A stretch of DNA of 64,000 bases from Planctomycetota bacterium (GTDB lineage: Bacteria > Planctomycetota > Planctomycetia > Pirellulales > UBA7805): the NCBI GenBank assembly GCA_021413705.1, contig JAIOPX010000239.1:1-64000 (forward strand). The letters are read 5' to 3'. This document shows positions 10,120 to 48,301 of the stretch, piece by piece. How positions within the stretch are numbered: the first letter of the stretch is position 1; every line of letters begins with the position of its first letter. The notes under the pieces were generated by a model, which ran no database searches, was not told where the DNA came from, and worked only from the letters and a program-made list of their open reading frames with translations. The position numbers and the translations under genes are program-made.

Positions 10120-13065
10120 ATGTCCATTAACAACCGCAGCCAAGCGCACCCAAGGCGAAAGCCTTGCCAGGCGCGAGCCCAACGACAAAGGGTCTTGTTT
10201 ACGGTTTGGGGCGGCGGCGGGGTATGTTTTATTTTGGCCTTATTTCTGCTGGTGGCGGTCGTGTCTCCCCAGAGCGCTCCCGCGGGTACTTTCTACAACT
10301 TCGCCAGCGGCGGCGCTGGTCCGTGGGACAATGCCACGACTGCCGTTTGGGGAAATGTCAGCGGAGGACCATACAACACCACCTGGAGTTCTGGCAATAC
10401 TGCCACGTTTGAAACCACGGGTGGCGCTGTTACCGTCAGCGGCACGATCTCCAGTGTCACCGGCCTGACTTTCAACACCACAGGCTATTCGCTCAGCGGC
10501 GGCACGATCACACTGACCGGCGCTCCAGCGCTCAATGCCAATTTCGCGAGCACGTCGAACACGGCCATCAGTTCGAGCCTCACATCGGGCGCCGGAGTGA
10601 ACGTCAGCAAGACGGGCACAGGCAAGATTACGCTCAGCGGCTCGTCCACGCTCGGCAACGGAACCCTCGTGATGAGTAACGGCACTTTAGTCCTTAGCGG
10701 AGTTCAGACAGGCACCATCGGAGCAGTAACCGTCAACAACACCAACAATGCCGCCAATGGATGGTTTGAAGTTGCGCCGGGCGCCAGTTGGACCGTTTCA
10801 TCTCTGACCGTTGCCGGCGCAGGCACGACCAACGGGGCCGTGATGCACCAGACGGGCGGCGCGCTGACTACCAGTGGCGCGTTTACGGTCGGTTCAGGCA
10901 CGCTGAACTCTAGCGCGTTTCATTATATGAGTGGCGGAACGCTCAGCGTGGGGACCAATCTGCAGGTGGGCGGAAGCCAACAGGGCCTCAGTAATTTCAG
11001 CATCAGCGGCGGTGCGGTGACTGTCACCGGCAACACTCGCATTGGCGGCACGAACAACAACAATGATACGGGCTTTTTCGATGTCTTCGGCGGTTCGCTG
11101 ACAACCGCCACGATGACCTTGCAGCCGAATCAGGACGGGCAAGGGACTCTCCACATGGGGGGCACCGGTGCGGTGAGTGTCACGGGCGCCGCCGGCATTG
11201 TGCTGGGTGGGATCAGCGGCGCGAATACCCGCGGGCCAGGGATTATCAATCTGGCCGGAGGGACCATCACCACCCAAAAAATCGTCAAGGCATCGGCGAA
11301 CACGGCGGCCGCCGCCACGGGTGGGAATCACCTCAACTTCAACGGCGGTACGCTCCAGGCGTCCGCGACGAATAATACCGACTTCCTTGGTGGCACGGCC
11401 AACCCTGCGGCTGGGAACAACTCGTTGGGGGTCGCTGGCTCGGCCCCGTTCGTGCGAATCTACAGCGGCGGCGCGACGATCGACACAAACGGTTTTGACG
11501 TAACGGCCAATCCCGCGTTTCTCCCCAGGGCCACTGCGACACTTTCGGGCATCGCCTCGGTGGCGATCACCAACTCGGGCAGCAATTATTCCATTGCCTC
11601 GGGTAACTTTGCTGCGGGTGGCAATCAAGTCACCTTTACGGGCGGGGGTGGCTCGGGAGCCACGGGCCGTGTTGTTCTCGACACGAACGGGGGGATCGCG
11701 GGAGTCATTATCACCGATCCCGGCACTGGATATTCCTCGGCGCCAACAATGTCGATCGTGGGACCCGTCTTGGGGCCTGGTGGAGTGGCTGCCACGTTCG
11801 GCACAGTCACCCTACGCTCGTCGGCCGTCGGCGGACTGACGAAGATCGGCGCTGGAATATTGACACTGGCCAGCGGGGCCAGTGCATATACCGGCGCAAC
11901 AACAGTCAATGGCGGAATCTTGAGCATCGGCACTCTAGCCAACGGCGGCGCGAACAGCAGCATCGGGGCATCGAGCAACGCGGCGGCCAACCTGATCCTC
12001 AACGGCGGTACGCTGCGCTATACCGGCGGCGCAATCAGCACGGATCGGCTCTTTAGCGTCGGGACCAGTAATGGCACGCTCCAGTCCAATGGATCTGGAC
12101 CTGTGAACTTTACCAACACCGGCGCCATGGGATTCAACGGCCAAGCCGGCGCACGTCTGCTGAGCCTGATGGGAACCGACACTGGTGCCAACACCATCGC
12201 CGCCAGCATTGGCGACAACGGTGGCGGCACGGCGCTGACCAAGATTGGCAATGGCCAATGGATCCTTACGGGCAACAACACGTACACTGGTAACACTGCG
12301 ATCAACCAGGGAACGCTCGCGTTGTCCCATGTGTCCAACAACAATATCTCCGGCACACCCTTGATCACTCTGGTGGGGGGCGCCTTCCTCGAAACGACAG
12401 CACTGGGCAGCGGTCTATTGACATCTGCTGATCTCATCCTGGCCCCAAACCAAAAACTGACGGGAACCGGAACCATCAACGGGAACCTCACTGTCGCCGC
12501 CAATTCCAGGCTCGCGCCCGGCAACAGCCCTGGTGCTTTGTTCGAAGATGGCGATCAAACTTGGGACGACGATGGCATCTATGAGTTTGAGATCAACGAC
12601 GCTGGCGCGGCCAACCCGATCCCCTTCAGCGGAACGGCCGGCAACGACCCCGGCTGGGACCTCATGAACATCGACGGCTCGCTGACGATCGCGTCCACTA
12701 ATACCGACCCGTTCGTCATCGAACTGATAGGCCTGACGCTGGCCAACGCTCCCGGCACGGTCAATGACTTTGACAATACACTCTCCTATGCCTGGTTAAT
12801 CGCCGACTCCACCAGCAACGTGAGCGGCTACGCGGCCGATAAGTTCGCGATTGATGACAGCCAATTCCTGTCGGCCAATCCCTATGGCGGAACCTTTAGC
12901 GTAGTGCTGGGTAGCTCTTTCGGCGGCGATGACTCCCAGGTCTGGCTCGCGTACACTGCGGCCGCTATTACCGCCGTACCCGAACCTGGGACTCTGGCCT
13001 TGGCGGCGATAGGACTAGCAGGCCTGGGATTGGCGGTTTGTCGACGTCTTTATCGGCTGGCTTAG
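10120..13065 (+). CDS. Autotransporter-associated beta-strand-repeat protein with PEP-CTERM tail
   Basis: Repeats such as GGLTKIGAGILTLASGASAYTGATTVNGGIL; NSRLAPGNSPGAL; C-terminus VPEPGTLALAAIGLAGLGLAVCRR. Confidence 0.88.
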   Translation: MSINNRSQAHPRRKPCQARAQRQRVLFTVWGGGGVCFILALFLLVAVVSPQSAPAGTFYNFASGGAGPWDNATTAVWGNVSGGPYNTTWSSGNTATFETTGGAVTVSGTISSVTGLTFNTTGYSLSGGTITLTGAPALNANFASTSNTAISSSLTSGAGVNVSKTGTGKITLSGSSTLGNGTLVMSNGTLVLSGVQTGTIGAVTVNNTNNAANGWFEVAPGASWTVSSLTVAGAGTTNGAVMHQTGGALTTSGAFTVGSGTLNSSAFHYMSGGTLSVGTNLQVGGSQQGLSNFSISGGAVTVTGNTRIGGTNNNNDTGFFDVFGGSLTTATMTLQPNQDGQGTLHMGGTGAVSVTGAAGIVLGGISGANTRGPGIINLAGGTITTQKIVKASANTAAAATGGNHLNFNGGTLQASATNNTDFLGGTANPAAGNNSLGVAGSAPFVRIYSGGATIDTNGFDVTANPAFLPRATATLSGIASVAITNSGSNYSIASGNFAAGGNQVTFTGGGGSGATGRVVLDTNGGIAGVIITDPGTGYSSAPTMSIVGPVLGPGGVAATFGTVTLRSSAVGGLTKIGAGILTLASGASAYTGATTVNGGILSIGTLANGGANSSIGASSNAAANLILNGGTLRYTGGAISTDRLFSVGTSNGTLQSNGSGPVNFTNTGAMGFNGQAGARLLSLMGTDTGANTIAASIGDNGGGTALTKIGNGQWILTGNNTYTGNTAINQGTLALSHVSNNNISGTPLITLVGGAFLETTALGSGLLTSADLILAPNQKLTGTGTINGNLTVAANSRLAPGNSPGALFEDGDQTWDDDGIYEFEINDAGAANPIPFSGTAGNDPGWDLMNIDGSLTIASTNTDPFVIELIGLTLANAPGTVNDFDNTLSYAWLIADSTSNVSGYAADKFAIDDSQFLSANPYGGTFSVVLGSSFGGDDSQVWLAYTAAAITAVPEPGTLALAAIGLAGLGLAVCRRLYRLA

Positions 13066-13316: not shown

Positions 13317-16300
13317 ATGATCCGCACATTTACCATGCGACATTTCCGCGCGCACTTTGTGCTCGCATTCGCTTCCGTGGTGTTACTGAACACGACACCG
13401 TTAGCTTTTGCCACCCCTATCACTAGCGGGCTGCAACTTTGGCTCGATGGTTCTGATCCCGACGGCGACGCGGTCGTCGAGGGAGTTGGCGAAACCGGCA
13501 TCTCAGGCGCCACGATCACTTGGGCCGATAAATCCGGCAACACTCGCAACTTCACGCAATCGACCGCTGCGCGCCAACCCGTCTATACCGCTACGGGATT
13601 CTCCAACTCCAAGGGCGCTTTTGACTTCACGGGGGGTAACGGGGTGGACGCTAACGGCGACACGCTTTTCTACGGCGGCGCCGGCCCACTCACGCCCGGC
13701 GACGATGATTACACCTATGTCGTCGTTTGGAATGCCGATCTAACCAATCAGTTCCGTTATGCCTATACACAAGGCGACGGCGCCGGCAACGGCGAGCGCG
13801 GCGGCTTGATCTTGTCGAACACAACCTATGGATTCAATGGGCTGAATGCGGACGCCAATGGGTTTGTGCCGTACACTGCTGCCCAAAGAAACCTGTCGAT
13901 TATGCAGGTGGATACCACGACGCGATTTGGCTTAGGGGGCGCCAATCCCAACGTGCGGATTTACGACGAGGGAACACTATCGACCGCACTGACAGGCAAC
14001 CCCACGACCCTCAACATTCAACAAGGGCAGACCTATGTGGCGAGCAGCGTAAGCACGACCGAGTTTTTCGACGGGAAAATCGCCGAGATCATGGTGTACG
14101 ATCGAGTGCTGAGCATCAACGAAGTGAATCAGGTGGGAAATTACCTGTGGGTGAAATACGACGCCCCGTGGGCAAGCACCACGACGGCGACGCAGTATTG
14201 GGATGGCAACGGCAACACGGCAGGCGCCAGCGCCACTCCCAATGGCACCTGGGGAACGAGCAATTTTTGGAATAGCGACGTGGCGGGTGGCGCCGGGACT
14301 TTCAAGACGACTACGGTCGCACAGGACGCCGTCATTTTTTCGGCGGGAGGCGATGCTACCGGAGCCTACACGGTTACGGTCAGTGGCAATCAGGAAGCCG
14401 GTTCCATTGTCTTTGAAGACGGTAGCGCCACGATCACAGGTGGAACAAGCCTTTCCATTTGGGGATCTGTTACCCACAACAGCACGGGTGCCACAACGAT
14501 CAACAGCCCGAGTGTAGGGGTATCCACGTTGGCTCACAATAACGGAAAACTGGTTCTCAATGGCGCCAACGCAACAACGACAAATACCTGGACCATTCAG
14601 AACTCGGGTAACGCCGCCAACGGCTGGCTGGAGGTCGCACCCGGGGGAGACTGGAAAGCATCAGCGATCAACGTCGGAGGCACCAGCACTGTTAATGGAG
14701 CCGTGATGCATCAGACCGGTGGTTCCTTATCGGTTAACGGAGCAGTCACAGTCGGATCGGGAACCACAAATTCGATCGCGTTTTATTACATGAGCGGAGG
14801 CACTTTGAATTCGGCCAGCATGAGGGTCGGAGGCACAGCGGCGAATAGTTCGTATTTTGGCATGAGCGCCGGGACGTTATCAGTCGCAGGAAATCTTCAG
14901 GTCGCGGAAAGCAACGTCAATGGAGGTGTGGCATACTTCGATCTTTTAGGAGGCTCCGCGACGGCGGCCACGATAACCACCAATGGCTTTCAAGACGGCA
15001 AACAATTCGTCAATGTCGGCGGAGGTACGCTTTCCGTCACGGGTGCGGGAGGAGTTACTCTCGGCGGCAGCGGTGTGCAAAACCGCTCACCAGGTAGGCT
15101 CACGCTGGCAGGAGGCGTTACCAGCGTTCAGAAAATCGTGAAAAACACGGCAACCGATCCAACACAGGATCCAAGTACTGTGTTTTTCAATGGGGGCACC
15201 CTGCGTGCCCTAGCAACCAATAATACAGACTTTTTGGGCGGGGTTGCGAATCCAGGAGTTGGCAGTATCTCCTTGGGAAATACGGGGGTAGCACCCTTTG
15301 TAAGGATTCTCAGCGGCGGCGGGACTATTGATACGAATGGCGCCGATGTCACCGCAAACACCCGGTTTCTGGGGCCAATCACTTCGACTGGGCTGAGCAT
15401 AGCTTCTGTACCTGTAACTACATTGGGTAGTAATTATTCGATTCCTTCAAATAGCAACACCAATACCAACCAAATGTTGACCTTCACCGGGGGCGGCGGT
15501 ACGGGCGCTATCGGACGCGTTGTTCTTGATGCCAACGGCGGAATCGCCGGGATCATCATCACCGACCCAGGTTCCGGCTACACTTCGGCCCCGACTTCTA
15601 TAACGATCGCCAACTCTATATTGGGCCCCGGTGGACTGGCAGCCGTGCTGGGAACCGCTGTGATGCGGCCAGCAGATGCGGGTGGACTCACAAAAGTTGG
15701 CTCTGGCATTCTCACGCTCGCGCGCGGCGATAGCGAATACTTGGGGCCAACGAGCATTAACGCAGGTGTACTCAGCCTGGGAACCCTGGCCAACGGTGGT
15801 GCGAACAGCAGCATTGGGAAGTCCAGTTCAGTTGCTGGAAACCTGATTCTCAACGGCGGCACGCTCCGCTATACCGGCGGCGCGGTCGGTACGGACCGGC
15901 TCTTCAGCGTCGGTACAAGCAACGGTACTTTCGAGACCAACGGGGGCGGTGCTGTTAATTTCTCGAACGCCGGTGCGATGGGATTCAATGGCCAATCGGG
16001 CGCGCGCACCCTTACGCTTACAGGCACGAACACTGGCGCCAACACCATCGCCGCCGTCATTGGAAACAACGGCGGGGCAACATCGCTCACGAAATCCGGC
16101 AGCGGAAATTGGACGCTTAGTGGCAACAGCTCCTATTCAGGCCCAACCCTGGTCAGCCAGGGAACTCTAGCCCTGCTGAACAACAATAACAATAACATCT
16201 CAGGTTCTACCACGATCAACATTGCGGGTGGAGCTTTCCTCGACACGACGGGCTTGGGGTCGGGCTTGCAGATTTCTCGCGATCTCATTCTCGCCGGCGG

Positions 16301-16919
16301 ACAGACTCTTAAGGGAACCGGCACCGTGCTGGGAAATCTCACAGTCGCTGCCGGATCGAAGCTTTCGCCCGGCAGTAGCCCCGGCACGATCAACCAGGTG
16401 GGTATCCAAACCTGGGATCCTGCCGGCGCACTGGTGGTGGAAATGAACGATGCACTGGGTACCGCCGGGAGCGACCCGGGTTGGGACTTGCTCAATATCA
16501 CCGGCTCGCTTGACCTGAGCGGCTTGGGTACGGGCAATGAGTTCATTATTGAACTAACCAGCCTGGATTTGGCGAATGCTCCCGGCTTGGCGGCGAACTT
16601 CAATCCGCTGAACTATTATGAGTGGCTCATCGTGGATACGACCAACGACATCGCCACCTACAGCGGCGCCAACCAGTTCACCGTCGACACCACCGCCTTC
16701 GACAACAGTTTCAGCGGTACGTTCAGCGTGCTTCGTGGCGATCAGGCGTCTGGGGACAACACCCAGCTTTACTTGGTGTATGCAGCAGCCCAAACGGAAG
16801 TCGTCCCCGAGCCCAGCACCCTGGCCTTGGGAGCCTTGGGAATGCTGGGACTGGGTGTGTTAGCCGCACGACGGCGCAGGAAGCAAAAAATAGACGCCTC
16901 GAGCAAACCCAAGTTTTAG
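13317..16919 (+). CDS. LamG/concanavalin-like N-terminus plus beta-strand repeats, PEP-CTERM tail
   Basis: N-terminus ITSGLQLWLDGSDPDGD...FDGKIAEIMVYDRVLSINEVNQVGNYLWVKY; repeats GGLTKVGSGILTLARG; C-terminus VPEPSTLALGALGMLGLGVLAARRRR. Confidence 0.88.
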   Translation: MIRTFTMRHFRAHFVLAFASVVLLNTTPLAFATPITSGLQLWLDGSDPDGDAVVEGVGETGISGATITWADKSGNTRNFTQSTAARQPVYTATGFSNSKGAFDFTGGNGVDANGDTLFYGGAGPLTPGDDDYTYVVVWNADLTNQFRYAYTQGDGAGNGERGGLILSNTTYGFNGLNADANGFVPYTAAQRNLSIMQVDTTTRFGLGGANPNVRIYDEGTLSTALTGNPTTLNIQQGQTYVASSVSTTEFFDGKIAEIMVYDRVLSINEVNQVGNYLWVKYDAPWASTTTATQYWDGNGNTAGASATPNGTWGTSNFWNSDVAGGAGTFKTTTVAQDAVIFSAGGDATGAYTVTVSGNQEAGSIVFEDGSATITGGTSLSIWGSVTHNSTGATTINSPSVGVSTLAHNNGKLVLNGANATTTNTWTIQNSGNAANGWLEVAPGGDWKASAINVGGTSTVNGAVMHQTGGSLSVNGAVTVGSGTTNSIAFYYMSGGTLNSASMRVGGTAANSSYFGMSAGTLSVAGNLQVAESNVNGGVAYFDLLGGSATAATITTNGFQDGKQFVNVGGGTLSVTGAGGVTLGGSGVQNRSPGRLTLAGGVTSVQKIVKNTATDPTQDPSTVFFNGGTLRALATNNTDFLGGVANPGVGSISLGNTGVAPFVRILSGGGTIDTNGADVTANTRFLGPITSTGLSIASVPVTTLGSNYSIPSNSNTNTNQMLTFTGGGGTGAIGRVVLDANGGIAGIIITDPGSGYTSAPTSITIANSILGPGGLAAVLGTAVMRPADAGGLTKVGSGILTLARGDSEYLGPTSINAGVLSLGTLANGGANSSIGKSSSVAGNLILNGGTLRYTGGAVGTDRLFSVGTSNGTFETNGGGAVNFSNAGAMGFNGQSGARTLTLTGTNTGANTIAAVIGNNGGATSLTKSGSGNWTLSGNSSYSGPTLVSQGTLALLNNNNNNISGSTTINIAGGAFLDTTGLGSGLQISRDLILAGGQTLKGTGTVLGNLTVAAGSKLSPGSSPGTINQVGIQTWDPAGALVVEMNDALGTAGSDPGWDLLNITGSLDLSGLGTGNEFIIELTSLDLANAPGLAANFNPLNYYEWLIVDTTNDIATYSGANQFTVDTTAFDNSFSGTFSVLRGDQASGDNTQLYLVYAAAQTEVVPEPSTLALGALGMLGLGVLAARRRRKQKIDASSKPKF

Positions 16920-18382: not shown

Positions 18383-18885
18383 GGTGGTAGTCCTCCCGTA
18401 ATCGCAAGTTGAATGATTTTTAAGAGCCTCCATGATATCATATATGATTCCGTGAGGCATCTTTGCGAGGATGGCGCGAGCTAGAGACCCAAACCAAGCC
18501 GTCTTGGAAAGAGCGCAAGTCATTATCACATAGTATGTTGCAACACGCCTACTTGAGCCAGCTCGCCTCGCGTACTGGACGGAGTTCTCAATGTTTGTTC
18601 ATGTTTTTGCTGCGATTCTTACAACCAAATACTTGACTCGTAGAGAGGGAGGCAAGTACAGTCAGAAGATGTAGTATATGTTGCATAGTGAAACTCATCG
18701 CTATCCAAGCACGAAATTCGGAAACGCTAATTCTTACAACGGAAGCCATTCGGCGAGTGACCAGAACGTCCTGATTTATTTTTGCATGTAAGCCAGCTTG
18801 GTTGATTGGCAGGCAGCGAAAATAAATCAGGGCGTTTTTGTTTGTATCGCAAAATTGTGTTCGTCAGGCAAAGAAAGAAAAGTCC

Positions 18886-31441: not shown

Positions 31442-33052
31442 ATGAAACAATCCCGGATAGCGCTCTGTTCGTGTCGCTGTGCAAACTCGGCTCCCACCTA
31501 CTTCAGCCGGTTAGTCGCAGCCATCTTCACGCTGTCCCTCAGTTGGGTCTACCCACTGACTTTGGCTGCCCAGCCCGCGGCAAAGCCGGTGAAAGGGGCT
31601 GCGCTCCCTGCTGCAAAGTCGCCCGCAGGAAAATCGGCCCTGCCCAACAATTCAATTGATCTCACCCGTGCTCATCGCGAACACCTGCTGGCCGATCCGC
31701 ATCGCCCTGGTTATCACTTTGCGATTCCAGAAGGGAGCGCCAGGCCGTTCGACCCCAACGGGTGCATTTTCTGGAAGGGGCGCTATCACATGTTCTACAT
31801 CTACCAGGACTCCCGTGGCCACAACTTCGGTCACGTTTCCAGCACCGACTTATGTCACTGGCGCTTTCATCCCACGGGTTTGGCCGGGGGCATGTTCAGC
31901 GGCAATTGCTTTGTCAACAAAGAAGGCAAGCCGACCATGTGCTACCACGATACGCAAAAAAAAGGAAACTCGATGGCGGTAGCCCTGGATGACCAGCTCA
32001 ATAACTGGGAGAAGTTGGCGAGCAGCCCCATCACACCCCAGACCGCGCCTGGCGATCGCCACCATGGCAAGTATCGTTCGTGGGATCCCTACGGCTGGTT
32101 GGAGGGGGACAATTATTATGCCATCTTCGGCGGCAAGCATCCTGGCATCGTCAAGAGTGCGACGCTCGATGGGCCGTGGAAATACGTTGGCGATTTGCTG
32201 GCCAACGCCGCGCCGGGCGTGGGAATCGACGAAGACATTTCCTGCGCGGACTTCTTCAAGATCGGCAACAAGCACATGCTGCTGTGCATCAGTCATGGAC
32301 TTGGAGCCCGCTATTATCTGGGCGAGTGGAAAAACGAACAGTTTCATCCAGACTTTCACGAGAAGATGAGTTGGGTGGACAACTCCTACTTCGCCCCGGA
32401 AAGTCTGTTGGACGATAAGGGGCGGCGGATCATGTGGGCCTGGTTATGCGACCTGCCCGGGATCAAGACACGATCTCCTTTCGGCTGGTCGGGCACGATG
32501 AGTTTGCCCCGCGTGCTGACGCTGGATGATGCCGGCTGGTTGCGGATGAATCCGCCGGAGGAACTGGATCGGCTGCGCTATAACGAGCAATCGGTCCCGC
32601 CGCTGGAGATCGCCGCGGACAAGCAGGAAGTGCTTAAGGATCTCAGCGGCAACTCCAAGGAGTTGTTTGTCGAGATGATCCCGGACAAAGCCACCCAACA
32701 GTACGGCGTTGCAGTCTGCCGTTCTCCTGACGGCGCCGAACAGACGTTGATCTATTACGACGCGGCCGACAAGAAGCTCAAGATCGACACCAGCAAATCG
32801 AGCCTCGGCGACGGAACCAAGACTGTCGAGGCCGGCCCGCTGGAACTACCCGCCGGTGAGTCGCTCAAGCTGCGAGTGTATATCGACAACTCCGTGATCG
32901 AAGTATTCGCCAACGACGGCCGCCAGGCGGTGATGCGGCGGATCTATCCGACTCGGCAGGATAGCATCGGCGTGGCGCTGTTCTCCAACGGCGGGCGCAC
33001 GCAGATCAAGAAAATGACTGCCTGGGAAATGATGCCGTCGAATTCGTATTAG
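31442..33052 (+). CDS. GH32-family-like secreted glycosyl hydrolase
   Basis: PFDPNGCIFWKGRYHMFYIYQDSRGHNFGHVSSTDLCHWRFHPT, RSWDPYGWLEGDNYY, DEDISCADFFKIGNKHMLL, LRVYIDNSVIEVFANDGRQAV. Confidence 0.9.
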   Translation: MKQSRIALCSCRCANSAPTYFSRLVAAIFTLSLSWVYPLTLAAQPAAKPVKGAALPAAKSPAGKSALPNNSIDLTRAHREHLLADPHRPGYHFAIPEGSARPFDPNGCIFWKGRYHMFYIYQDSRGHNFGHVSSTDLCHWRFHPTGLAGGMFSGNCFVNKEGKPTMCYHDTQKKGNSMAVALDDQLNNWEKLASSPITPQTAPGDRHHGKYRSWDPYGWLEGDNYYAIFGGKHPGIVKSATLDGPWKYVGDLLANAAPGVGIDEDISCADFFKIGNKHMLLCISHGLGARYYLGEWKNEQFHPDFHEKMSWVDNSYFAPESLLDDKGRRIMWAWLCDLPGIKTRSPFGWSGTMSLPRVLTLDDAGWLRMNPPEELDRLRYNEQSVPPLEIAADKQEVLKDLSGNSKELFVEMIPDKATQQYGVAVCRSPDGAEQTLIYYDAADKKLKIDTSKSSLGDGTKTVEAGPLELPAGESLKLRVYIDNSVIEVFANDGRQAVMRRIYPTRQDSIGVALFSNGGRTQIKKMTAWEMMPSNSY

Positions 33053-33123
33053 TGGGGTGGGTGCTTGCACTCACGCAGAATTGGACGCAAACGAAAGGCC
33101 GTGGGTGCAAGCATCCACCCAAC
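33052..33123. repeat. Long imperfect inverted repeat between the two tandem GH32 genes
   Basis: Arm GTGGGGTGGGTGCTTGCACTCACGC (33052-33076) and CCGTGGGTGCAAGCATCCACCCAAC (33099-33123): 20 of 25 positions complementary. Confidence 0.7.
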
Positions 33124-33150
33124 AGTACCTTACTTCCAAAGGCTGAATTC

Positions 33151-34740
33151 ATGCGCACATGCCTATTCGGGTTCTTATCACTCTTGATTTTGCAAGGCAC
33201 GTCCACTGCCTCGGCAAAAGAACCCGCAGCAGTTTCACCGAATGTGCCTCATGACATGCGGCACCACCTGCTGGCCGATCCGCACCGGCCGGAATTTCAC
33301 TTTGTCATTCCCGAGGGACAGGTCGCGCCCTTCGATCCCAACGGCGGCTTATTCTATAACGGGCGATATCACCTGTTCTACATTTACCAGGACGAGGACC
33401 GCCAACATTGCTTTGGACACATCTCCAGCCGCGACTTGTTTCACTGGCGCCAACATCCTACCGTGCTGGCGCCAAAAGAGGGCGACGCAGACGTCGGCAC
33501 GTTCAGCGGCGGAGCGTTTCTCGATAAGCAAGGCGTGCCGACGATCATTTACTGGGGGTTGGGCGATAGTTGGGGACGGGGGAAAAAACTCAATCGCCCC
33601 GGCGGGATCTGCCTGGCCACCAGCACCGATAAGAACCTCGACACCTGGACCAAGTCCCCCCACAACCCGGTGATTCCCTATCCCAAACAAGGGGATAAGG
33701 AGTACGAGCGATACACGGCCGTCGATCCATCGGCCGTTTGGGTAAAGGACGGCAAGTACAACGTATTGACCGGCAACCTGCAAATGATGATCGAAGTCCA
33801 CAAGAATAAGCCGGAGTTCAAGAAAGGCGATACGAACTATTTGTTCCAATCGGACGACCTGATTCACTGGACCTACAAGCACGAGTTCTACAAGTCCGAT
33901 CGCAAATGGACCGCTGCATTTGAAGACAACATGTGTCCCGATTTTTTCCCCTTGGGAAACAAGCACATGATGCTCTTCATCAGCCACACCAAAGGTTGCC
34001 AGTACTATCTGGGATCCTACGAGAACGACCGGTTCGCCCCCGAACAGCACGGCCGCATGACCTGGGTAGACCACGAATTCTTCGCGCCGGAGACCATCCT
34101 CGACGACAAAGGCCGTCGGATCATGTGGGCCTGGGTGTTCGACCGCAATAGCGTCGCGAGTCAGCGCGCCGCCGGCTGGGCGGGCCTGTTCAGCCTGCCT
34201 CGCGTGCTGACGCTCGGCCAGGACGGCAACCTGCGGATGAATCCACCGGAGGAACTGGAACGACTTCGTTATAACGCTGTCACCGCTGACGACCTGAGCG
34301 TGCCGGCCGGACAGGAAGTCGTACTCGACAAGGTGAAAGGAAGCGTATTTGAATTGAACATCGTACTGGAACCGTCTCCCGAAGCGAAACAGTTCGGCGT
34401 TGTTGTCGCGAGATCTCTAGACGGCGCAGAGCAGACTCGCGTGTTCTATGACGCGACGGAGAAGAAGCTCAAAATCGACACCAGCAAATCTGGCAAGGAA
34501 GGGGGCCGTAAAATCGAGGGAGGTCCACTGGAACTAGCTGCCGACGAGCCGCTTCGACTGCGCGTGCTGGTGGATAAGTCCGTGGTCGATGTGTTCGCCA
34601 ACGACGGGCGCCAGGCCGTATGTCGGCGGATCTATCCGTCGAATCATCAGAGCGTTGGCGTAGCCGTATTCGCCACCGGCGGCCCCGTGAAAGCCAGCAA
34701 GATCAAGGCCTGGGACATCATGCCTTCCAACCCTTATTGA
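33151..34740 (+). CDS. GH32-family-like secreted glycosyl hydrolase
   Basis: PFDPNGGLFYNGRYHLFYIYQDEDRQHCFGHISSRDLFHWRQHPT, FEDNMCPDFFPLGNKHMM, LRVLVDKSVVDVFANDGRQAVCRRIYP; start ATG 33151 after signal-less extension. Confidence 0.9.
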   Translation: MRTCLFGFLSLLILQGTSTASAKEPAAVSPNVPHDMRHHLLADPHRPEFHFVIPEGQVAPFDPNGGLFYNGRYHLFYIYQDEDRQHCFGHISSRDLFHWRQHPTVLAPKEGDADVGTFSGGAFLDKQGVPTIIYWGLGDSWGRGKKLNRPGGICLATSTDKNLDTWTKSPHNPVIPYPKQGDKEYERYTAVDPSAVWVKDGKYNVLTGNLQMMIEVHKNKPEFKKGDTNYLFQSDDLIHWTYKHEFYKSDRKWTAAFEDNMCPDFFPLGNKHMMLFISHTKGCQYYLGSYENDRFAPEQHGRMTWVDHEFFAPETILDDKGRRIMWAWVFDRNSVASQRAAGWAGLFSLPRVLTLGQDGNLRMNPPEELERLRYNAVTADDLSVPAGQEVVLDKVKGSVFELNIVLEPSPEAKQFGVVVARSLDGAEQTRVFYDATEKKLKIDTSKSGKEGGRKIEGGPLELAADEPLRLRVLVDKSVVDVFANDGRQAVCRRIYPSNHQSVGVAVFATGGPVKASKIKAWDIMPSNPY

Positions 34741-36143: not shown

Positions 36144-36439
36144 GTATGATATGTCTCTTGTTTAGTGCGCCTCGTTCTGCCGGGTTACGCTGGCAAGGCG
36201 CAGCTGTGCGCGATAACTGAGTGTGAGTGATTGCTCTTCTCTGCAAATCTGAAACTGCGTGCCCAAGTAGAACGCTCCATGTTAATACCCCATCTTGAAA
36301 CTCCCTTCTGCGTAGCGCCATGGCGCCGCTGGGCCACGCAAAATCTTGCGACGGCCATCAGTGCGGCGGTGATGGCTCTTCGCTTGTTTTTTTCCCCAGG
36401 CGGCCAACTTATCACAGCAGGCAAGGCGAGGTGCCGCTC

Positions 36440-39400
36440 ATGAGAAGCATTTCATTGCGAGCTATTTCCTTCACCTTGCTCTGCCGGGCAGTCTGTGCCG
36501 CGGCTTGTGCGGTTGTGATGCTCCATCTCGGATTGCAACCTGCTGTGGCTCAGTGGCAAGGCGCAACGTCGGGCGATAGCTACGCCCCAGGCAACACCTA
36601 CGACTACGATGCTCCGGCGAATTGGGTTGGGGGAACGATCAATGATTCGTTCCTGGGCACCACACTCACTGGCAACGTCACCCTTTCGCTCGACGCCGCT
36701 CGTACCACGGTCCCCAGCGGACTGAACATCACTTATGCGGGCGCCTTTGATTTCAATCTCTTCTCGGACAGCGCCACCCCGCGGGCGCTTACGCTTGGCG
36801 GCAACGTGATCGCCAATGCCACCGACGGCAATCAGACGATCACCATCGGCACTGGCCTCCGTCCCGTAACCCTGAATCTCAACGATGCGACACGGACGTT
36901 TACCGTCGGAACTGGCGACACGCTGGTGGTCAACGGCGTCATCTCCAGTACGACCGTTGCAGCCGGTGGGCTGACTAAGGCCGGCACGGGTACTCTGACG
37001 CTCAACGCCGCCAACACGTTTGCCGGCCCGCTGACAATCACGGATGGCACGGTCAAAGCCAACACGAGCGCTGCGGCACTTGGCGCCGGCGTTCTCGCGT
37101 TAGGCGGGGGTACACTCGATTTCAACCATAGCGCCCTCTTAAATTTCGGTCGCGCTACCGCAGTCTACGGCAACACGACAATCATGTCTGAAAAGGATGT
37201 TGCCGGAACGGGTGTCACCTACACCCTGGGCACCATGATTATTGGCGCCAACACACTCAATGTGCAGGGTGGCAACGTCACCAGCGGCACAGCGGGGCTC
37301 ACTTTTGGCGTTACCTCACTCAATGGCAATGCCACGATCAACATCACCGACCCTGTTGGCGGCGGCACAACGCTGTTAACTGTCGGCGCCATCACGGGCT
37401 TCGCCAACAGCATCACCCTGCAAGGCAACGGAGACTTTGCCCAGGCTGGCGTTTGGAGCGGTGCTGGCAGCTCTCTCGTGCTCGATACGGGTTACAGCGG
37501 GCTGGCCACTCTCAACCAAGCCAACACATTCACCGGTGGGGTAACGATCAACAGCACCTCTGGCGGCACCCTTCGACTGAACCACGCGACGGCGGCCAAT
37601 ACACCCATTAGCTTCGGCACGGGGAGCACGGGCGTACTGCAAGTCCAGCTTTCCACCACCGTCGCGGGGCTGAGTTCCGCCGCCACCGGGGCAATCGTCG
37701 AGAACGGTGTCGGTGGAGCAACGACGCTGACCGTCAGCAACCCCAAGGCCAATACGTTTGCTGGCGTGATCCAGAACGGCGGCGCCGGTACGCTCGCCTT
37801 GACACTGAGCAACAGCGGCAACGGTGGCGTCCTGACCCTGACCGGTTCAAACAACTACAGCGGTCTGACCACGATAAGTGCCAACGCCGTACTAAACATT
37901 CAAAACAACACGGCATTGGGGAATACGACAGCCGGGACCTCGGTTACCAATCTCGGTGCTCTTCAAGTACAGAACAACATCACCGTGGGCAATGAAGCGC
38001 TGACGCTCAACGGCACCGGCGTCACCAATACCGGAGCGCTGCGGAACATCGCCGACAGCAACACCTACGGCGGCCTGATTACGCTGGGAAGCGCGTCCCG
38101 CATCAACTCGGACAGCGGTACACTTACGCTGGATGTCTCCTCAGGCAACGCGATCTCCTCGGGTGCCAATCAGAATTTGACGATCGGCGGCGCCGGCAGC
38201 GTAATCGTGGCCGATCCGATCGCAACCTTGGCCGGCACGCTGACCAAGGATGGCACTGGCACGCTGACGCTAAGGGGGTTGAACACGTACACCGGACTCA
38301 ATACGGTCCAGAACGGCAAAATCAAGGCAGATGCTTCGAACAACCTAGTGTTCAACTCCGCCAACGCGTTGACGTTTAATGGCGGCGGGACGTTTGAGTA
38401 TGATAACGGCACCGCCGCGGCCGCCCGTGCCCAGTCGCTCGGGGCGCTGACGTTCCAGGCCGGCGACGGCACCGTTCAGCTGACGCAGACCGCCGCACAG
38501 AATCTCAAACTCACTCACTCTTCGCTGGCGGCCAGGGCGGCTGGCGCGACCGGCAACTTTGTTTGGAATGGCGTTTCGGACGCCAATAACGGCATCTATC
38601 TAACGGGTGTTGCAGCCGGTTTCATCAATCAGGGAGAGTTTTTCAATGGCAGCAATTACGCGTATATGAACGCGTTGGGTACATACGTCCGAGGCATCAA
38701 TTATGGCTCCGATGCCAGCACAGCGGCCGTCGGTCCGGCCACGGAAATCGGCGCTGCTGACGCCAGCAAGCACATCCGCATCGACGGCACGATCTCGGGG
38801 CAGAACACTCGCACTATCCTCACCCTCAACCTTGCCGGCGCTTACGACTTTACCCTGGCCGGCAGTCAGACTCTGACACTGACTAATGGCGGCATCCTCA
38901 AGGCAGGGGGCGGCTCCAGTACGATCAGCGGCGGCACGGCGCTAACCCATGGCACCCTCAACGGCGAATACGTTGTCCGCACTGACGCTGCCAGTGACAG
39001 CCTGACGATCAATACTCCGATCAACGCCAACGGAGCAAACATTTTCACCAAGTCAGGGGCGGGCACGCTTACCTTGGGCGCGTCGAATGCCTTCACCGGC
39101 AACGTGTTCGTCAATGGCGGCACGTTGAGCATCAGCAACAACAACAATCTGGGGCCGGTAGCCACGACGAAGGCCATCACTCTCCACGGAGCCACGCTCC
39201 AGCTTACGAACAACATTGACTTCTACAACGGCGCTCCCGCCACGAATCCGAAAGCGTTCGGAATCGGACCGGCTGGCGCGACGATCGATACTGGCGTCAA
39301 CACGGCCACAATCTCCGGTGTTATTTCCAGCAGTGTCGCCAACCTCGGCCTGTTGACCAAGTCCGGCAGCGGTACACTCGTGCTTTCCGGCGCGAACACG

Positions 39401-42400
39401 TTGACCGGTGGCTTGAGCCTCAACCAGGGAGATCTGGTGGCCACCGTCGCCGGCGGCTTCGGCACGTCGGGCAATACCCTGTTCTTCAACGGTGGCAACC
39501 TGGAACTTCGTGCCAGCGCGACCGCCTACACCGGCAAACTAGACATGACTGCCGCCGGGACGACGGTCACCATCAACCCCGCAACATTGGGCAGTGGCGT
39601 GACCCATTCGCTCAGCACTGCGGCCACGCTTGGCACACAGACGATGGTGATTCAAAAAGGATCGCTGACCAATGTGGATACGAACTACGGCCTCACACTC
39701 AGTGCAGCACCCATTCTCACCGGCAATCCCACGTTTACGATCAATGGCAACGGCACCGGAGTTGGCACCTTGACGCTCGCGGGTGGGTTGGACATGGGAG
39801 GTGCCACCCGTACGTTGACGTTCAACTCTGGTACAGGTTCTAGTGCCGTCGTTATCAATGCCGGCGCTTTGACGGGTACGCCGGGCACGCTCGAACTGGC
39901 AGGCACCACTCCGACCATCACCGTCAACGCCCTGACCACCACCGCCAACAACCTCAAACTCAGTGGCTCGGGAACGTACACACTGCAAGGCGCCAGTACC
40001 TACACCGGCAATACGATCCTGAATAACTCGGCCGCCACTGTCATCGCTACGAATGGTGGCGGATTTGGTACCGGCAACCGGGTGGTATTCAACACGGCTG
40101 GCGCCGGCTTCGAACTGAAACTCGATGCTGGCACGACCTTTACCACCGGCTTGGATAGTTCAACCAACGGCGGAACGATCACGGTCAACCGTGCCACTCC
40201 CGCGGCCACGGCAACGACGCACATCCTGAATCAAGCCAACTTCCTCGGCGGTAATACCATCAATGTCCAGGCCGGAGCCAACATCACATCGGGTACCGCA
40301 TATGGCCTGACGCTCAGCGGCGCCAACGTCCTGACCGGCAGCCCGACCTTCAGCATCAATGGCAACGGGGCCGGTGTTGGCACACTGACTCTCTCCGGTG
40401 GTTTCGACACCCAAGGTACGACGCGGACCTTGACATTCAATGGCGGCACCAGCGCCGCGGTGATATCGGGTGCATTCGCCGGTGCCGCAGGGATCCTGGA
40501 TCTCGCTGGAAGCACGCCTAATGTTACTGTCGGTGCGCTGACGACATCTGCCAACGCTGTTCAAGTGAGTGGATCGGGCATCTACACCTTCAACGGCGCG
40601 AGTACATTCACCGGTGGGGTAATTCTGAACAATTCAGCGGCCAGTGTAATCGGCACGGTGGGCGGCGGCTTCGGCGCAACCGCGGGCAAGGTCAAGTTCA
40701 ACGTGGCCGGCACAGCATTTGAGCTGCAAAACAACACCGGTACGACATTCACTTCCGGCATCGACACTACCGCATTCGGCGGCGGCATCACGGTGAATCG
40801 AGCCACCCCCCCCGCGGCAACGGCCACAACTCACACACTGAGCCTGGCCAACAGTCTCGGCGGCACCACTCTGACTGTCAGTCCGGGAGCAAACATCAGC
40901 AGCGGAACTGCCTATGGCCTGACGCTCTCCGGCACAAGTACGCTGAGCGGCGCTCCGACGTTTGTCATCAACAATAACGGCGCAGGAATTGGCACACTCA
41001 CCTTGGGAGCCGTCCTCAACTATGCGAACAACGCCACGATCACGGGGGCCGGCAACTTCGCGCAATCAGGAGTGTGGGGTTCCGGCAGTGGCGGAATTAC
41101 TCTGGACGGCAGCTATTCTGGCGCGGCGACACTCAATCAGGCCAACACATTCACGGGCGGCGTTAGTCTGTCTTCGGGCACGCTGAACATCAACTCGGTC
41201 GGGGTGGTTGCAACCAACGGGCCGTTGGGCAATGGCGGAACATTTTCCATCAATGGCGGCACGATCGACAACACCAGTGCATCGGCAAAGGTACTTTTGA
41301 ACGTCAACCCAATTACCCTCGGGGGCAACTTCGCCTTCAGCACCTCCGCAGGTACTGCTAATAACAATCTGACGCTTCCCGGCGCGGTGAGCATGGGTGC
41401 CGATCGGACTATCACGCTTAATGGCGCAGGCGCATTAAATCTCAGTGGCCTGTGGACCAACACCAACGATTCAGTGCGGACCTTGACGATCAATAACGGC
41501 GCAGGGACCACAGCGGCCACGCTTCTCTCGATCGGCAGCTACAACTTGACTGGGCCAGGAAGCACAGCCGCACGCAACAATATCATCAACGGCACGGGCA
41601 ACGTGACGATCAGTGGCGTAGTTGGCAACGGGGTTAGCGCCGGCAGCGCTCTGACCTACAACGGCACCGGAACCCTCAGCCTCGGGGGCTCGAATACGTT
41701 TACTGGCGGCCTTACGGTCATGTCAGGCACTGTCAGTGGCACCGTTGCCAACGCGTTTGGCGGCAGCGGAACCGGAGCGGTGACACTGGGCGATGCTACC
41801 ACACCCGCGACGGGCGCCACGCTGAATTTGGGTGTCGCAGCCACATTCGCCAACCCTATCACCACGGTCCCCAACGCCAACAGCGGCGTGTTAACGATCC
41901 AGGATGGCGGAAACTTCGCCGCCATCCTCTCTGGGCCGATCACTCAGAACAGCGCGCTGACGATCCGAAACACAGGCACCACCGTGATGACGCTGACGGG
42001 GGGCATTTCTACCACATCGGGCACGGCCAATCTGACGCTCAACGCAGCCGGCACGGGAGGCATTACACTCAGTTCAAACCCGATTAACAACGCCGGTTCG
42101 ATCACCAACGCGAGCACCAGCAGCGGCCCTGTTATCATCAGCGCAGCCATCGGCAGCAGCGTCACCAATATTCTCCAAAGCGGCTCCAGCAACCTGTCAA
42201 TCACGAGCGCAACTATCGCCAACAATGGCAACCTGACTTTCTCCGGCACGGGAGCATCAACGGTCACAGTTGGCACTGGGGCGATCAATACCGTGGGCTC
42301 AATTCTCAACAACGGCATCACGACCGGCACCACAATACTCAGCGGCACGATCGGCAACACCATATCCAGCATTACTCAGAACAGTCCGACCTCAACACTG

Positions 42401-45400
42401 GCTTTGAGCGGCAACAACTCCACTTATACAAATGGACTTTTAATCTACAATGGGACCGCAAGCGCTACTGGCGTCACCAACCCGTTTGGCGCCGCGGCCA
42501 ACGTCATCACCCTCGGCGACTCAACCACGGCGGCGACTGGCGCCACGCTGAATTTGGGAATCGCCGGCACGTTCGCCAATCCGATCACCACGGTGCCGAA
42601 CTCCAACGGTGGTGTGCTGACCATTCAGGACGGTGGAAACTTTATCGGCACACTCTCGGGGCCAATCACTCAAAATAGCGCGCTGACGATCAAGAACAAC
42701 GGCACCCAGTTGATGACTATCAGCGGTGGCATTTCCACGACGTCTGGCACGGCTAATCTGACGCTCAATGCAACCGGCACGGGTGGCATTACGCTTAGCA
42801 CGAATCCGATCAATAACGCCGGTACGATCACCAACGCGGGCACGGCTGCTGGCGTCGCGACGATAAGCAGCGTCATCGGAGCGAACGTCACCGGCGTGAA
42901 TCAAAATAGCGCCCCTTCGACGCTGACGCTTTCGGGACCAAACACGTATACCAGTGCCACTACCGTTAGCGCCGGGACGCTGATCGCATCGAACGCCTCG
43001 GCACTGGGCACGACGGCGGCCGGCACGAGCATATCCTCCGGCGCCACGCTCGACGTGCGGGCCAACATCGGCACCGAAGCCATCACTAGCCTCGAAGGCG
43101 TCGGAGTCGGCGGCAACGGTGCGCTGATTACGGGCAGTGGTTCGGGAACCGTCGGCGGGGCCGTGACCTTGGTAGGCACTGCCAACATCGGCGGAGCTGG
43201 AGCGCTTACGATCGGTGGAGCGATCGGCGACGGGGGCAGCGGGTTTGGCATTACCAAAGTGGGTGCGGGCGTAACCACGCTGACCGGGGCCAACACCTAT
43301 ATCGGCCCGACCACGATCAATGCTGGCAGCCTGATCGTCAATGGCTCGCTCGCTGCCGGCAGTGCGGTATCAATCAACGGTGGCACGCTCGGCGGCAGCG
43401 GAAATGTGGCGGGTACGGTGGCCGTCAACAGCGGTGGCACGATCTCGCCGGGCAATAGCCCCGGAACACTCAACACGGGCGCCACAACTTACGCCAGCGG
43501 CGGCACCTACAAGTGGGAAATCAACAACGCACTCACCACTCAAGGAATCGATCCGGGCTGGGACTATCAGAACATTAACGGGACGCTGGACATCACAGCG
43601 ACCAGCGGCGCCTTCCCAGCCAATACTTTCCGGATCGACGTTACCGGGCTGGACCCCAGCAATGTCGCCGGAGCGGTCTCCAATTGGAACCCGCACAGCA
43701 ACTACACCTGGAACCTCGCGACGGCCAGCAGTGGGATCACCAACTTTGCGGCCAATAAGTTCGATGTGTTGACCACGAATTTCTCCAATTTCAATGCCCT
43801 CGCCGGGACATTTGGAGTGGCAACCTCCGGTAACAACCTGCAATTGACGTACACAGCCGGTGCCGGCGCAGCGACTTCGTATTGGGATCTCAATAGCACC
43901 CTGCCCGGCGCCGGCGGCAGTTCGCCGGGTGGCGTGTGGGGCGGCAGCAATGCCAACTGGTCATTTAGTTCGTTGGGAACTGGATCGACTTATAATTGGA
44001 CCAACGGCGACAATGCGGTCTTCGCAGCCGGCACGGATGGCAACGGATCGTATATTGTCACCATCGCCGGGGGGGGCGTGACCGCGCAGAACATTACGTT
44101 CGAGGAAGGGCAGGCGGCCGTTCCCATCACCACGATTAGCGGCGGCACGCTCACGTTGGCGGGAACAACGCCGACAATCTCGGTTGCCGCCACCCGCACC
44201 GCGGCCATCAACTCCGTGATCGCGGGCACCGATGGCCTGGTCAAAGGCACCGGCACTGGCACGTTGACATTGTCGGGTCTAAACACCTACACCGGCGTAA
44301 CCAACCTCAACGCCAGCGCGGGTATCACCCAGGTCAGCAAGCTCGCCAACGGTCTGTCCCCCAGCAGCATCGGACAATCGAGCAATGTGGCGGCTAATTT
44401 GTTAATTGGGAGCGCTTCGACGTTGCAATACATCGGCTCCGGCGACAGCACCAACCGGTCGTTTACGCTCAATGGGACCACCAACGCGCAGTCCTTTACG
44501 CTTGACGCCTCCGGCTCGGGGGCACTCAGTTTCACCAACACAGGCAGCCTGGCGTATGGGACGACCAACCAAACCCGCACCCTGGTTCTCAGCGGCTCCA
44601 GCACGGCGGCCAATACGTTCTCCCCGAAAATTGAAGACAACGGCACCGGGGCCACGTCCGTGACCAAGAGTGGTGTGGGGACTTGGGTTCTCAACAATGA
44701 CACCAGCAACTATACGGGGACTACCGCGATCCAGGGGGGGACGCTGAGCATCACCTCCATCAAGAGCGTGGGGGGCGGCGCCAGCGCCGTGGGGGCACCG
44801 GCTCCCGGGAACGGCACGATCAGTATCGGCAGCACGACCACAACTGGGCAACTAACATACACCGGCACGGGCGACACGACGGACCGCGTAATCAACCAGG
44901 CGGGCACCTCAGGAGGAGTGATCCTCGATCAGTCCGGCGCGGGACTGCTGAAATTTACCAGCAACCTGACCGCCACCGGCGCTGGGACGAAGAACCTGAC
45001 ATTGCAAGGTTCAACGGCTGGCACGGGTGAAATCGCCGGGGCCATCGGACAGAACGGCACAACCACGCTCACCAAGGCCGGCACTGGCACGTGGACCCTT
45101 TCTGGTTCCAATACGTTCAGCGGTTCGACCACGATCACCGGCGGCACGCTCAACCTGGACTACAACACGAACGACACCAGCAAACTTGCCGACGGATCCG
45201 TTCTGCTGCTCAGCGGCGGAACGCTGAATTTCATGGGAGCGGCCGGCACCCACCACGAAATCGTCGTCTCCACGACGCTTACGGGCGCGAACAACGTCAC
45301 CCGCACCAGCGGCGCGGCCGTGCTGCGGATGGGGGGCATCACGGCCTCGGCCGGGTCCGTCAATTTTGGCGCCGACAATATCGCCAGCACCACGAACACC

Positions 45401-48301
45401 AACGCAAACGGTATCCTGCAAGGTTCGAATTCGGTGGGCTGGGCTACCGTCGGTGGGACAGACTGGGCCGCGAATTCCGGCACTCTTGAGGGAAGCGGCA
45501 ACAACTTCATCGTGGCGTACTCCGGCTACGCCGACGTAACGCGGCAGATTTCCGGCCCGCAGTCCATTATTGATGACTCCACATCCAACGTGCGGATTAT
45601 CGAGGGGAGCGGTGGGGCGGCCGACATCACGCTGGGTGCTGCCACCACTACTCTCAATACGCTCAATCAGAGCTCGCTGGGCGGCACCGGCGCTGCCACC
45701 ATCGATCCGGCCGGCCAGACGCTCGGCGTCCGCGGTGTCTTGATCGGCAGCGACGCCGGCTCGCTGACGATCGGAAACGGCGTGAACAATGGCACGCTGC
45801 GTGCCGCGGTCGCCAGCGGTAACCTGCTGCTGAACAACCAGTCAACCACCAGTGTCTTGACAGTCAATTCGGTCATTGCGAATAACACGGGCACATCAAC
45901 GCTGACCAAAGTCGGCCTCGGCACAGCGACGCTTGCTGCCACGAACAGCTACAACGGCACAACGACCGTCAACGGCGGCACGCTGAACGCCAATGCCACG
46001 GGAGCCATCCCTGGCGCATTGACCGTCAGTTCCGGGACTTTAAACGCAAACGCCTCCGGAGCCATCTCGGGCGCCACAACGGTCAGCGGCGGCACGCTGG
46101 TCTATGGAGCCATTGATCCGATCGCCGACGGGCAAAATGTTACGGTCAGCAGCGGCACGCTCAACATCGGCGCCTTCAGCGACACAGTCAATACCATCAC
46201 ACTGAGCGGCGGCACCATTACCGGCACGACGGGTGTTCTGACAAGTACCAGCACTATTCAGGCCCAATCGGGAACGGTTTCGGCGGTGCTCGGCGGCGAC
46301 GTCGGAATGAATAAGACCACGGGAACGGTGACGTTGTCGGGACTCAATACCTTCACGGGCGACATCGTAATGCCAACGTCCAGTGGAGGGACGTTGATTG
46401 TCAATACGCTCTCCAATAAAGGCGTCCCGAGCAGCATTGGCGCTGGGGGCCTCGATGCAGACGGCGCTGGTCCCGGAACCATTCTCTTGGGCGATATCTT
46501 TATGAACACGCCCAGCGGTGGCGGGCAGGGAACCCTCATTTATACCGGAGGCAGCGTTACTACCGATCGGGGGTTGTACTTCCATCAGAATACCGATCGC
46601 GTCACTGCGCCAGCGGGCGGGACGATCGCCAATGTGCAGATTTCGAATTCCGGCGTTACCGTCGGTTTCCTAGGCAATAGCAAGTGGGGTTCCGGCTCTG
46701 GCCAGGGGAAGACTTTCTTCGGTCCAACTACCGGCCTGAGTACGTTAAATTTCGGTGCCGTCGAACTATTTTTCTCCTCCGGTGATGGCGGCCAGTACAC
46801 CGCGACTCCAACCCTCAACGTCAACATCGCCTCACTTTCATCCGTCTCGGGCGGCACGACAGCCTCGAACTTCATCTTCAACGGGCCAACCAATTCAATT
46901 GGTAACATCAATTTCACTCTTTTGGGGAAGAGTCTGAGTTTGTCCGGCACCGGCATCACGACTCTTACAGGGAACAACTCGTTCAGCGGCGCCGGCACGA
47001 TGTTGGTTGACAACGGCATAGTGATCCTTACCGGCAGCAATAGTGGAGGAACTATGACATGGTCGGTCGCCAATGATGCAATCTTGCGGGTCGGTAACGG
47101 CGGGACGACCGGTACTATCAGCGGCCTCGTAAGCAACGCAGGTCAACTGATCTTCAACCGTAGCGATTCGACCTACGTGTCGAACAACAACATCAGCGGC
47201 GCGGGCAGAGTGCAGCAACTCGGCAGCGGCCGGACCACCTTGTCAGGCACCAACACGAACACGGGACAGACGATTGTCACCAACGGCACACTCCAGTTTC
47301 AAAAAGAAGTTTCGCTCTACAACAATACACCCGCCAGTTGGACGGCCGCGAACATCGTGGTCGAGCCCAATGCGACCCTGGCGTTCAATGTCGGCGGTAC
47401 GGGGGTAAACGCGGGGCAGTTCACCGCTTCCGACCTCGATGCGCTCAAGGCCATCGGAACGAGCGCCGGGGGATTCAAGAGCGGCACGTACCTCGGGATC
47501 GACACGAGCAACGCCGTAGGAACCTTTGTGTACAACAGCAACATCAGCAATCCCAATGGCGGAACCAACGTCCTGGGGCTGACCAAGCTTGGTGGTAGCG
47601 CGCTGGACCTCGGAGGGACGAACACGTACACCGGGACGACCAACGTCAGGGCCGGCACTTTGCGGGTCAACGGCACACACACCGGCGGCGGATTGTACAC
47701 GATCGATGCTAACGGCACGCTGGGCGGAGCCGGCAGCACCACTTCCGACGTGCTCGTCTATGGAACCCTGGCGCCGGGCAACAGCATCGAGTCGCTCGGT
47801 ACGGGTTCTATGACGTTCGATGGGGCGTTTTTCAACGGAACGTACGACTACGAGTTGGACACGGACGCGCCACTCGCAACTGCCGCCGACCTGCTTTATG
47901 GCGACAGCGGCAGCACGCTGACGCTTAATAATGCCTTGCTGTTGCTGACGGACCTGGGGTCCGGCTCGACATTGACGTCGGGAACCAAGCTCACAATGAT
48001 TGCCTATGACGGAATCTGGAACGGCGGTGAGTTCTTCGAAATCGGGGCCGTCGGCTCGCTCCTTTCCGACGACAGTACGTTCAGTTTTGCCGGCAACAAC
48101 TGGCTCATCAACTATGACGACGCCTCGCCTGGCAGCAACTTCCTCGGCGATATCACCACCCAATCGAAGTTTGTGACCATTACGGTCTCGAATGAAGTCG
48201 CAGCCGTTCCCGAGCCAGCCACCTGGGCCCTGGCCGTACTCGGGTTGCTTGGCCTGGTCATCTACGCCTGTCGCCGATGCAAGCAAGTCGGTACGGTCTG
48301 A
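36440..48301 (+). CDS. Giant (about 3950 aa) autotransporter-associated beta-strand-repeat protein with PEP-CTERM tail
   Basis: ATG 36440 followed by hydrophobic signal-like segment; dozens of [21 protein letters not shown] repeats; C-terminus [26 protein letters not shown]. Confidence 0.9.
39440..41160 (+). repeat. About 600-bp tandem repeat units (three clear copies) within the giant gene
   Basis: Units re-starting at [12 protein letters not shown] (~39450), [12 protein letters not shown] (~40055), [13 protein letters not shown] (~40663), each with T.YGLTLSG...INGNG.GVGTLTL. Confidence 0.8.
41755..42900 (+). repeat. About 725-bp-offset duplicated segment within the giant gene
   Basis: [51 protein letters not shown] (~41814) vs [51 protein letters not shown] (~42540). 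Confidence 0.85.

Follow-up and report, generated by a model that had tools for sequence, protein, structure and literature searches.

The giant open reading frame in the window analysed here, 64,000 nucleotides of planctomycete DNA, most likely encodes a heterologous two-unit, single-anchor exported beta-repeat protein, probably made by shuffling at the boundary between a unit-terminator module (block C) and a passenger-start module (module S). The original prediction had interpreted this junction as the in-frame fusion of two ancestral secreted proteins, followed by loss of the first anchor. All the details on which it drew and which we checked are correct: the C block found at the ends of sister proteins sits inside the giant, a passenger start lies directly behind it, and there is no PEP-CTERM between them. 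Of the interpretation itself, one part stands, i.e. that two unlike passenger units with different terminators (C and D) are joined in frame at about 43877; a requirement for two ancestral anchored genes and a lost internal anchor is not supported, and C is found to be recurrent at internal positions.

Architecture of the giant protein and its genomic setting

The reading frame of the giant is uninterrupted from 36320 to 48301 (Table 1). The first ATG is probably too early by 40 residues, and the true start is probably the ATG at 36440 (M41), just before a putative signal peptide. At the level of domain families, the protein matches PATR (PF12951) with 147.8 bits and TIGR02601 with 143.9 bits, and 13-14 repeats pass the curated cut-offs individually. 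The start region of unit 1 has a 56% relative in contig C95 of the same genome. The autotransporter outer-membrane beta-barrel family has no match anywhere in the giant; its C-terminus is a PEP-CTERM, composed of a PEP motif, a hydrophobic helix and basic residues, which scored 29.2 bits against PF07589 in one search (over the cut-off) and 20.5 against a cut-off of 20.7 in another.

Table 1. Features of the giant and of its sister genes, with positions in the window.
Feature	Positions	Strand	Residues	Basis or remark
Giant ORF	36320..48301	+	3993 aa	PATR/TIGR02601 repeats
Putative signal peptide, ends LQPAVA	36440..36550	+	aa 41-77	Typical, clear by eye in the translation
Unit 1 body: N-terminal start region and PATR-type beta repeats	36551..43411	+		Repeat-family match
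Block C, internal unit-terminator module	43412..43876	+	aa 2365-2519 (~155 aa)	Matches to sisters
Module S, passenger-start module, abuts C directly	43877..44164	+	aa 2520-2615	Sister match, profile
Unit 2 body: PATR-type beta repeats	44165..47719	+		Repeat-family match
Block D, unit 2 terminator	47720..48202	+		Differs from C except for a short APGNS stretch
PEP-CTERM anchor, sole one in the giant	48203..48277	+	aa 3962-3986	PF07589 match
Terminal block C of sister 10120, then PEP-CTERM	12481..12969	+		Sequence match
Terminal block C of sister 13317, then PEP-CTERM	16332..16796	+		Sequence match
S module of sister 13317	14193..14507	+		Sequence match, profile

The landmarks of block C in the giant are a 10-residue peptide from aa 2375 (43442), DPGWDYQ at 2411 (43550) and LQLTYTAG at 2507 (43838); those of module S are SYWDLNS at aa 2520 (43877) and another 10-residue peptide at aa 2562 (44003). 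The block matches sister 13317 at 42% over 151 aa (E 1e-25) and sister 10120 at 37% over 165 aa (E 2e-21), and the S module matches aa 293-377 of 13317 at 40% (E 2e-8); judged by these alignments, both similarities are far above chance. Within the giant, PGWD, YWD and VPEP each occur once (VPEP at aa 3963), and C otherwise aligns to the giant itself in short or weak matches only (E >= 0.003). A search of all frames between 43700 and 44100 for a PEP-like peptide or a PEP-CTERM relic found none, no step in GC or GC3 is seen across the junction, and a scan of genome contigs with the junction peptide gave no match.

The two neighbouring passenger genes at 10120-13065 and 13317-16919 are 53% identical over 927 aa: one gene was duplicated in tandem, and each copy has retained its anchor. 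Neither of them, nor 18838, is supported as a parent of either half of the giant, as similarity is confined to modules and repeats. Three genes of the GH32 family (16916-18529, 31442-33052 and 33052-34740) are located among the PEP-CTERM passenger genes of the window, which suggests fructan or levan metabolism beside surface proteins. The window belongs to contig C131. The draft genome comprises 6.58 Mb in 457 contigs and is 89.5% complete and 6.1% contaminated; its PSCyt1 and DUF1501/1549/1553 genes indicate a planctomycete, as does one DUF1501 gene, the relatives of which come for the most part from Planctomycetota and Verrucomicrobia, with a Planctomycetota bin at the head of the list. PEP-CTERM is matched 74 times in this genome, and three genes score as exosortases above the PF09721 cut-off.

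Blocks C and S are recurrent modules

Neither C nor S has a match in Pfam, even at E 5. Profiles of both were built by us and used against the host's own genome and the genomes of its order. In the own genome, C occurs in single-unit proteins that end in C and PEP-CTERM (L010, 1770 aa; L011, 1274 aa), and S is located right behind the signal peptide in L009 and L011; because of this placement, we regard C and S as genuine end and start modules. According to the profile search, C is present in 70 out of 297 genomes of the order. The fate of 105 copies was followed, a non-random set from loci around the better-scoring matches, in which family f7 is dominant: 44 are followed by another repeat restart, 26 by an S-like start and 22 by a PEP-CTERM within 60 residues, while 13 are other cases or cut. 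The S-like class is set by a Trp pattern and includes start modules unscored by the S profile; the restart class is of the SGTQTQ type, and several of its members have, by eye, a dockerin-like stretch ahead of the anchor.

The 26 direct C-to-S joints are distributed over 15 genomes, which belong to families f1, f7 and f16. A spacer of 0-10 residues separates C from the first Trp, and no PEP motif is found at any of the joints. Wherever the 3' end of a joint-bearing ORF is available (n=15), a PEP-CTERM follows further on, nearly always near the C-terminus. At the profile cut-off, 23 S modules are placed close to the N-terminus and 12 immediately behind C. Furthermore, seven ORFs contain two or three copies of C, and L079, L080 and L085, which are related to one another (45-53% identity in the aligned stretches), possess three, two and one, respectively. 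In the congener G001, an internal C is followed immediately by a start module in three large proteins (L039, L040 and L041); L040 is the sole local match that spans the join of the giant (33% over 919 columns), with a different start module. The internal position of C in the giant is not special, and C is a reusable unit terminator in the host's order. The supposition that such a block does not recur within other passengers does not hold, given 26 joints and up to three copies per ORF. Recurrence of the block inside passengers is what the original prediction had named as evidence against itself, and this is largely what C shows; fusion with loss of an anchor is only partly supported.

Two further large proteins deserve mention. 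On contig C84 of the own genome, L012:4429-10624 is a large PATR protein with a frameshift at an internal C-like block; 3' of the frameshift, a domain of another type is followed by a further start module, a second SPGNSP block and a PEP-CTERM. The frameshift may be an assembly error or mark a pseudogene. L223, on contig C315 of G001, is a PEP-CTERM ORF of 4097 aa that has stretches in common with unit 1 of the giant.

Phylogeny of the terminator blocks

In the tree of 105 C copies, the C of the giant pairs with the internal C of L040 (92), with L039 next, and the terminal C copies of the sisters cluster with L010 and L011. A tree of 24 rows recovers an internal group (88/83) and a terminal group (99/98). 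The grouping of the giant's C with the terminal C of its own genome is rejected in the 24-row tree (AU 0.023), but its grouping with the terminal C of the sisters is not rejected in the larger, quick 105-row tree (AU 0.52). Topology thus suggests, with moderate statistical support, that the giant's C is closer to the internal C of the congener than to the terminal C of its sisters; because the C phylogeny is weakly resolved and the two trees disagree, this direction of C history is suggested and not proven.

Module exchange is seen in another pair of proteins. L041 of the congener, with an internal C, and L016 of the own genome, with a terminal C followed by PEP, share a C that is 69% identical over 175 aa and falls into one clade (100/100), while no similarity is detectable between their upstream bodies; closely related C blocks thus sit on dissimilar bodies, a case of module exchange. 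The first and the second C of L083 and L084 together make up a four-member clade (99-100%), in which each copy stands with its counterpart from the other protein, a topology by which both show unit duplication. Among the relatives of block D, those whose 3' end is intact are either single-unit PEP-CTERM proteins, three of them complete ORFs, or fragments with a PEP-CTERM at the end; outside the giant, D was found solely before PEP-CTERM.

No protein orthologous to the giant over its full length was found in the 93% complete draft of G001 or in the sampled relatives; individual segments of the giant hit different proteins. The event is consequently undated and unpolarised. A comparison of the window with the L039-L041 loci revealed no convincing conserved neighbourhood.

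Read-through fusions of PEP-CTERM proteins

Three ORFs each encode, in one continuous frame, two or three PEP-CTERM proteins that are complete: L018:1746-3521 (own contig C93), L221 (a 612-aa ORF on contig C209 of G001) and L147:4531-10314 (G166). In each of them every internal PEP-CTERM is kept, and the signal peptide of the next protein follows. The examples from the own genome and the congener are small PEP-CTERM proteins unrelated to the giant; L018 and L221 share 43% identity in their first halves, and their fusion partners differ. L147 lies in a contig of 6.47 Mb, a near-complete chromosome, and its first unit aligns with L146 over 1130 aa at 86% identity; L146 stops after its PEP-CTERM. 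Inspection by eye adds L082, L137 and L100 (G175, G092 and G227), where a prepilin-type start (1559-like) follows in frame behind the PEP-CTERM, with a dockerin-like stretch ahead of that PEP-CTERM in L137 and L100; in L138, a signal peptide and a DUF1080-like domain take the place of the prepilin-type start.

Origin of the two-unit protein

We hold it likely that the two units derive from different lineages and were recombined at the C/S boundary, a joint that recurs in the host's order. A start module opens and a terminator closes each run of PATR-type repeats, with C serving unit 1 and D unit 2. Recombination at the C/S joint would leave a PEP-CTERM anchor on the last unit only.

The alternative that two neighbouring full-length PEP-CTERM genes fused, with deletion of the anchor and stop of the first and of the promoter, start and signal peptide of the second, seems unlikely to us. 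It is consistent with C and S being bona fide end and start modules and with the existence of tandem PEP-CTERM passengers (10120 and 13317), and the read-throughs in L018, L221 and L147, which retain an internal PEP-CTERM, indicate that the first step of this route does occur. However, separate adjacent halves, each a PEP-CTERM gene, were not found in the draft of G001 or in the sampled relatives; remnants of an anchor are present at 0 of the 26 C-to-S joints; the nearest copies of C are already internal; and the read-throughs with two or three PEP-CTERM proteins lead into neither an S module nor a PATR passenger. We still allow it a small share because anchor-retaining read-through fusions exist, although the proteins concerned are of other types. 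That a passenger unit was duplicated in tandem within one gene, as happened in L083 and L084, is very improbable for the giant, since the terminator of unit 2 (D) differs from C apart from the short APGNS in common; the start regions of the units differ as well. A chimeric assembly of two genes is hardly credible: repetitive sequence in a fragmented draft (457 contigs, 89.5% complete, 6.1% contaminated) could invite one, but the join is in frame and exactly on a module boundary used in other genomes, it shows no GC or GC3 step, and the clean removal of stop, anchor and signal peptide would be unexpected.

Export and possible function

For the two-unit mosaic, we propose export by Sec, retention in the inner membrane through the PEP-CTERM helix at the C-terminus and cleavage by exosortase, after which a long fibre or matrix protein of two segments would be displayed; a role in adhesion or biofilm formation may be envisaged. 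Export and anchoring would be those of the PEP-CTERM/exosortase system described by Haft 2006 (PMC1569441), according to which PEP-CTERM is located near the C-terminus virtually without exception. A multi-unit protein would be expected to bear the last anchor only, whatever its origin. From their positions, C could cap the first solenoid at its end and S could open the second. AlphaFold2 models, made with alignments of window sequences only, have a mean pLDDT of 53.5 for the junction and 66.0 for C alone, and the stretch ahead of C is modelled as regular short strands, mostly with pLDDT 70-88; at this low to moderate confidence the models are too weak to show capping. Foldseek with the C model found no PDB fold match at E <= 0.001, and a weak match of the C profile to PPE4 in a PDB sequence search (E 0.003) is not believed.

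A more general model is put forward tentatively, with slightly less than even confidence: C/S might be the standard joint with which these planctomycetes put together exported beta-repeat proteins of one to three interchangeable units per exosortase anchor, and C might also take a dockerin-bearing tail or the anchor as its end, which would amount to a combinatorial system of surface-protein construction.

Relation to known systems and significance

The giant has the same repeat family as the autotransporter-associated repeat proteins of PATR (PF12951)/TIGR02601, but differs from them by the lack of a barrel match, a PEP-CTERM anchor, two units, and terminator and start modules not yet modelled. 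Type V autotransporters are defined by a C-terminal outer-membrane beta-barrel, and the giant falls outside this class. Its C-terminal PEP-CTERM, probable signal peptide and genomic exosortases are those of PEP-CTERM/exosortase substrates (PF07589; Haft 2006, PMC1569441), among which it is very large and two-unit, and otherwise ordinary in having a single anchor at its C-terminus. Periscope proteins (Whelan 2022, PMC9704523) are likewise long anchored repeat proteins whose unit number varies among relatives; their definition requires highly identical tandem domains (Whelan 2022, PMC9704523), whereas the units of the giant are diverged and heterologous, ending in C and D, with C and S present once each. 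No earlier description of this modular architecture was found in the literature searched.

In kind the giant is ordinary, and in detail it is mildly new: it belongs, with two units, to a modular architecture. A separate oddity came to light in the internal PEP-CTERM signals that are retained inside read-through fusions. Furthermore, two recurrent modules without a Pfam family, C and S, are now searchable, and what was suspected to be a one-off fusion becomes a general rule for very large exported proteins in a group of planctomycetes.
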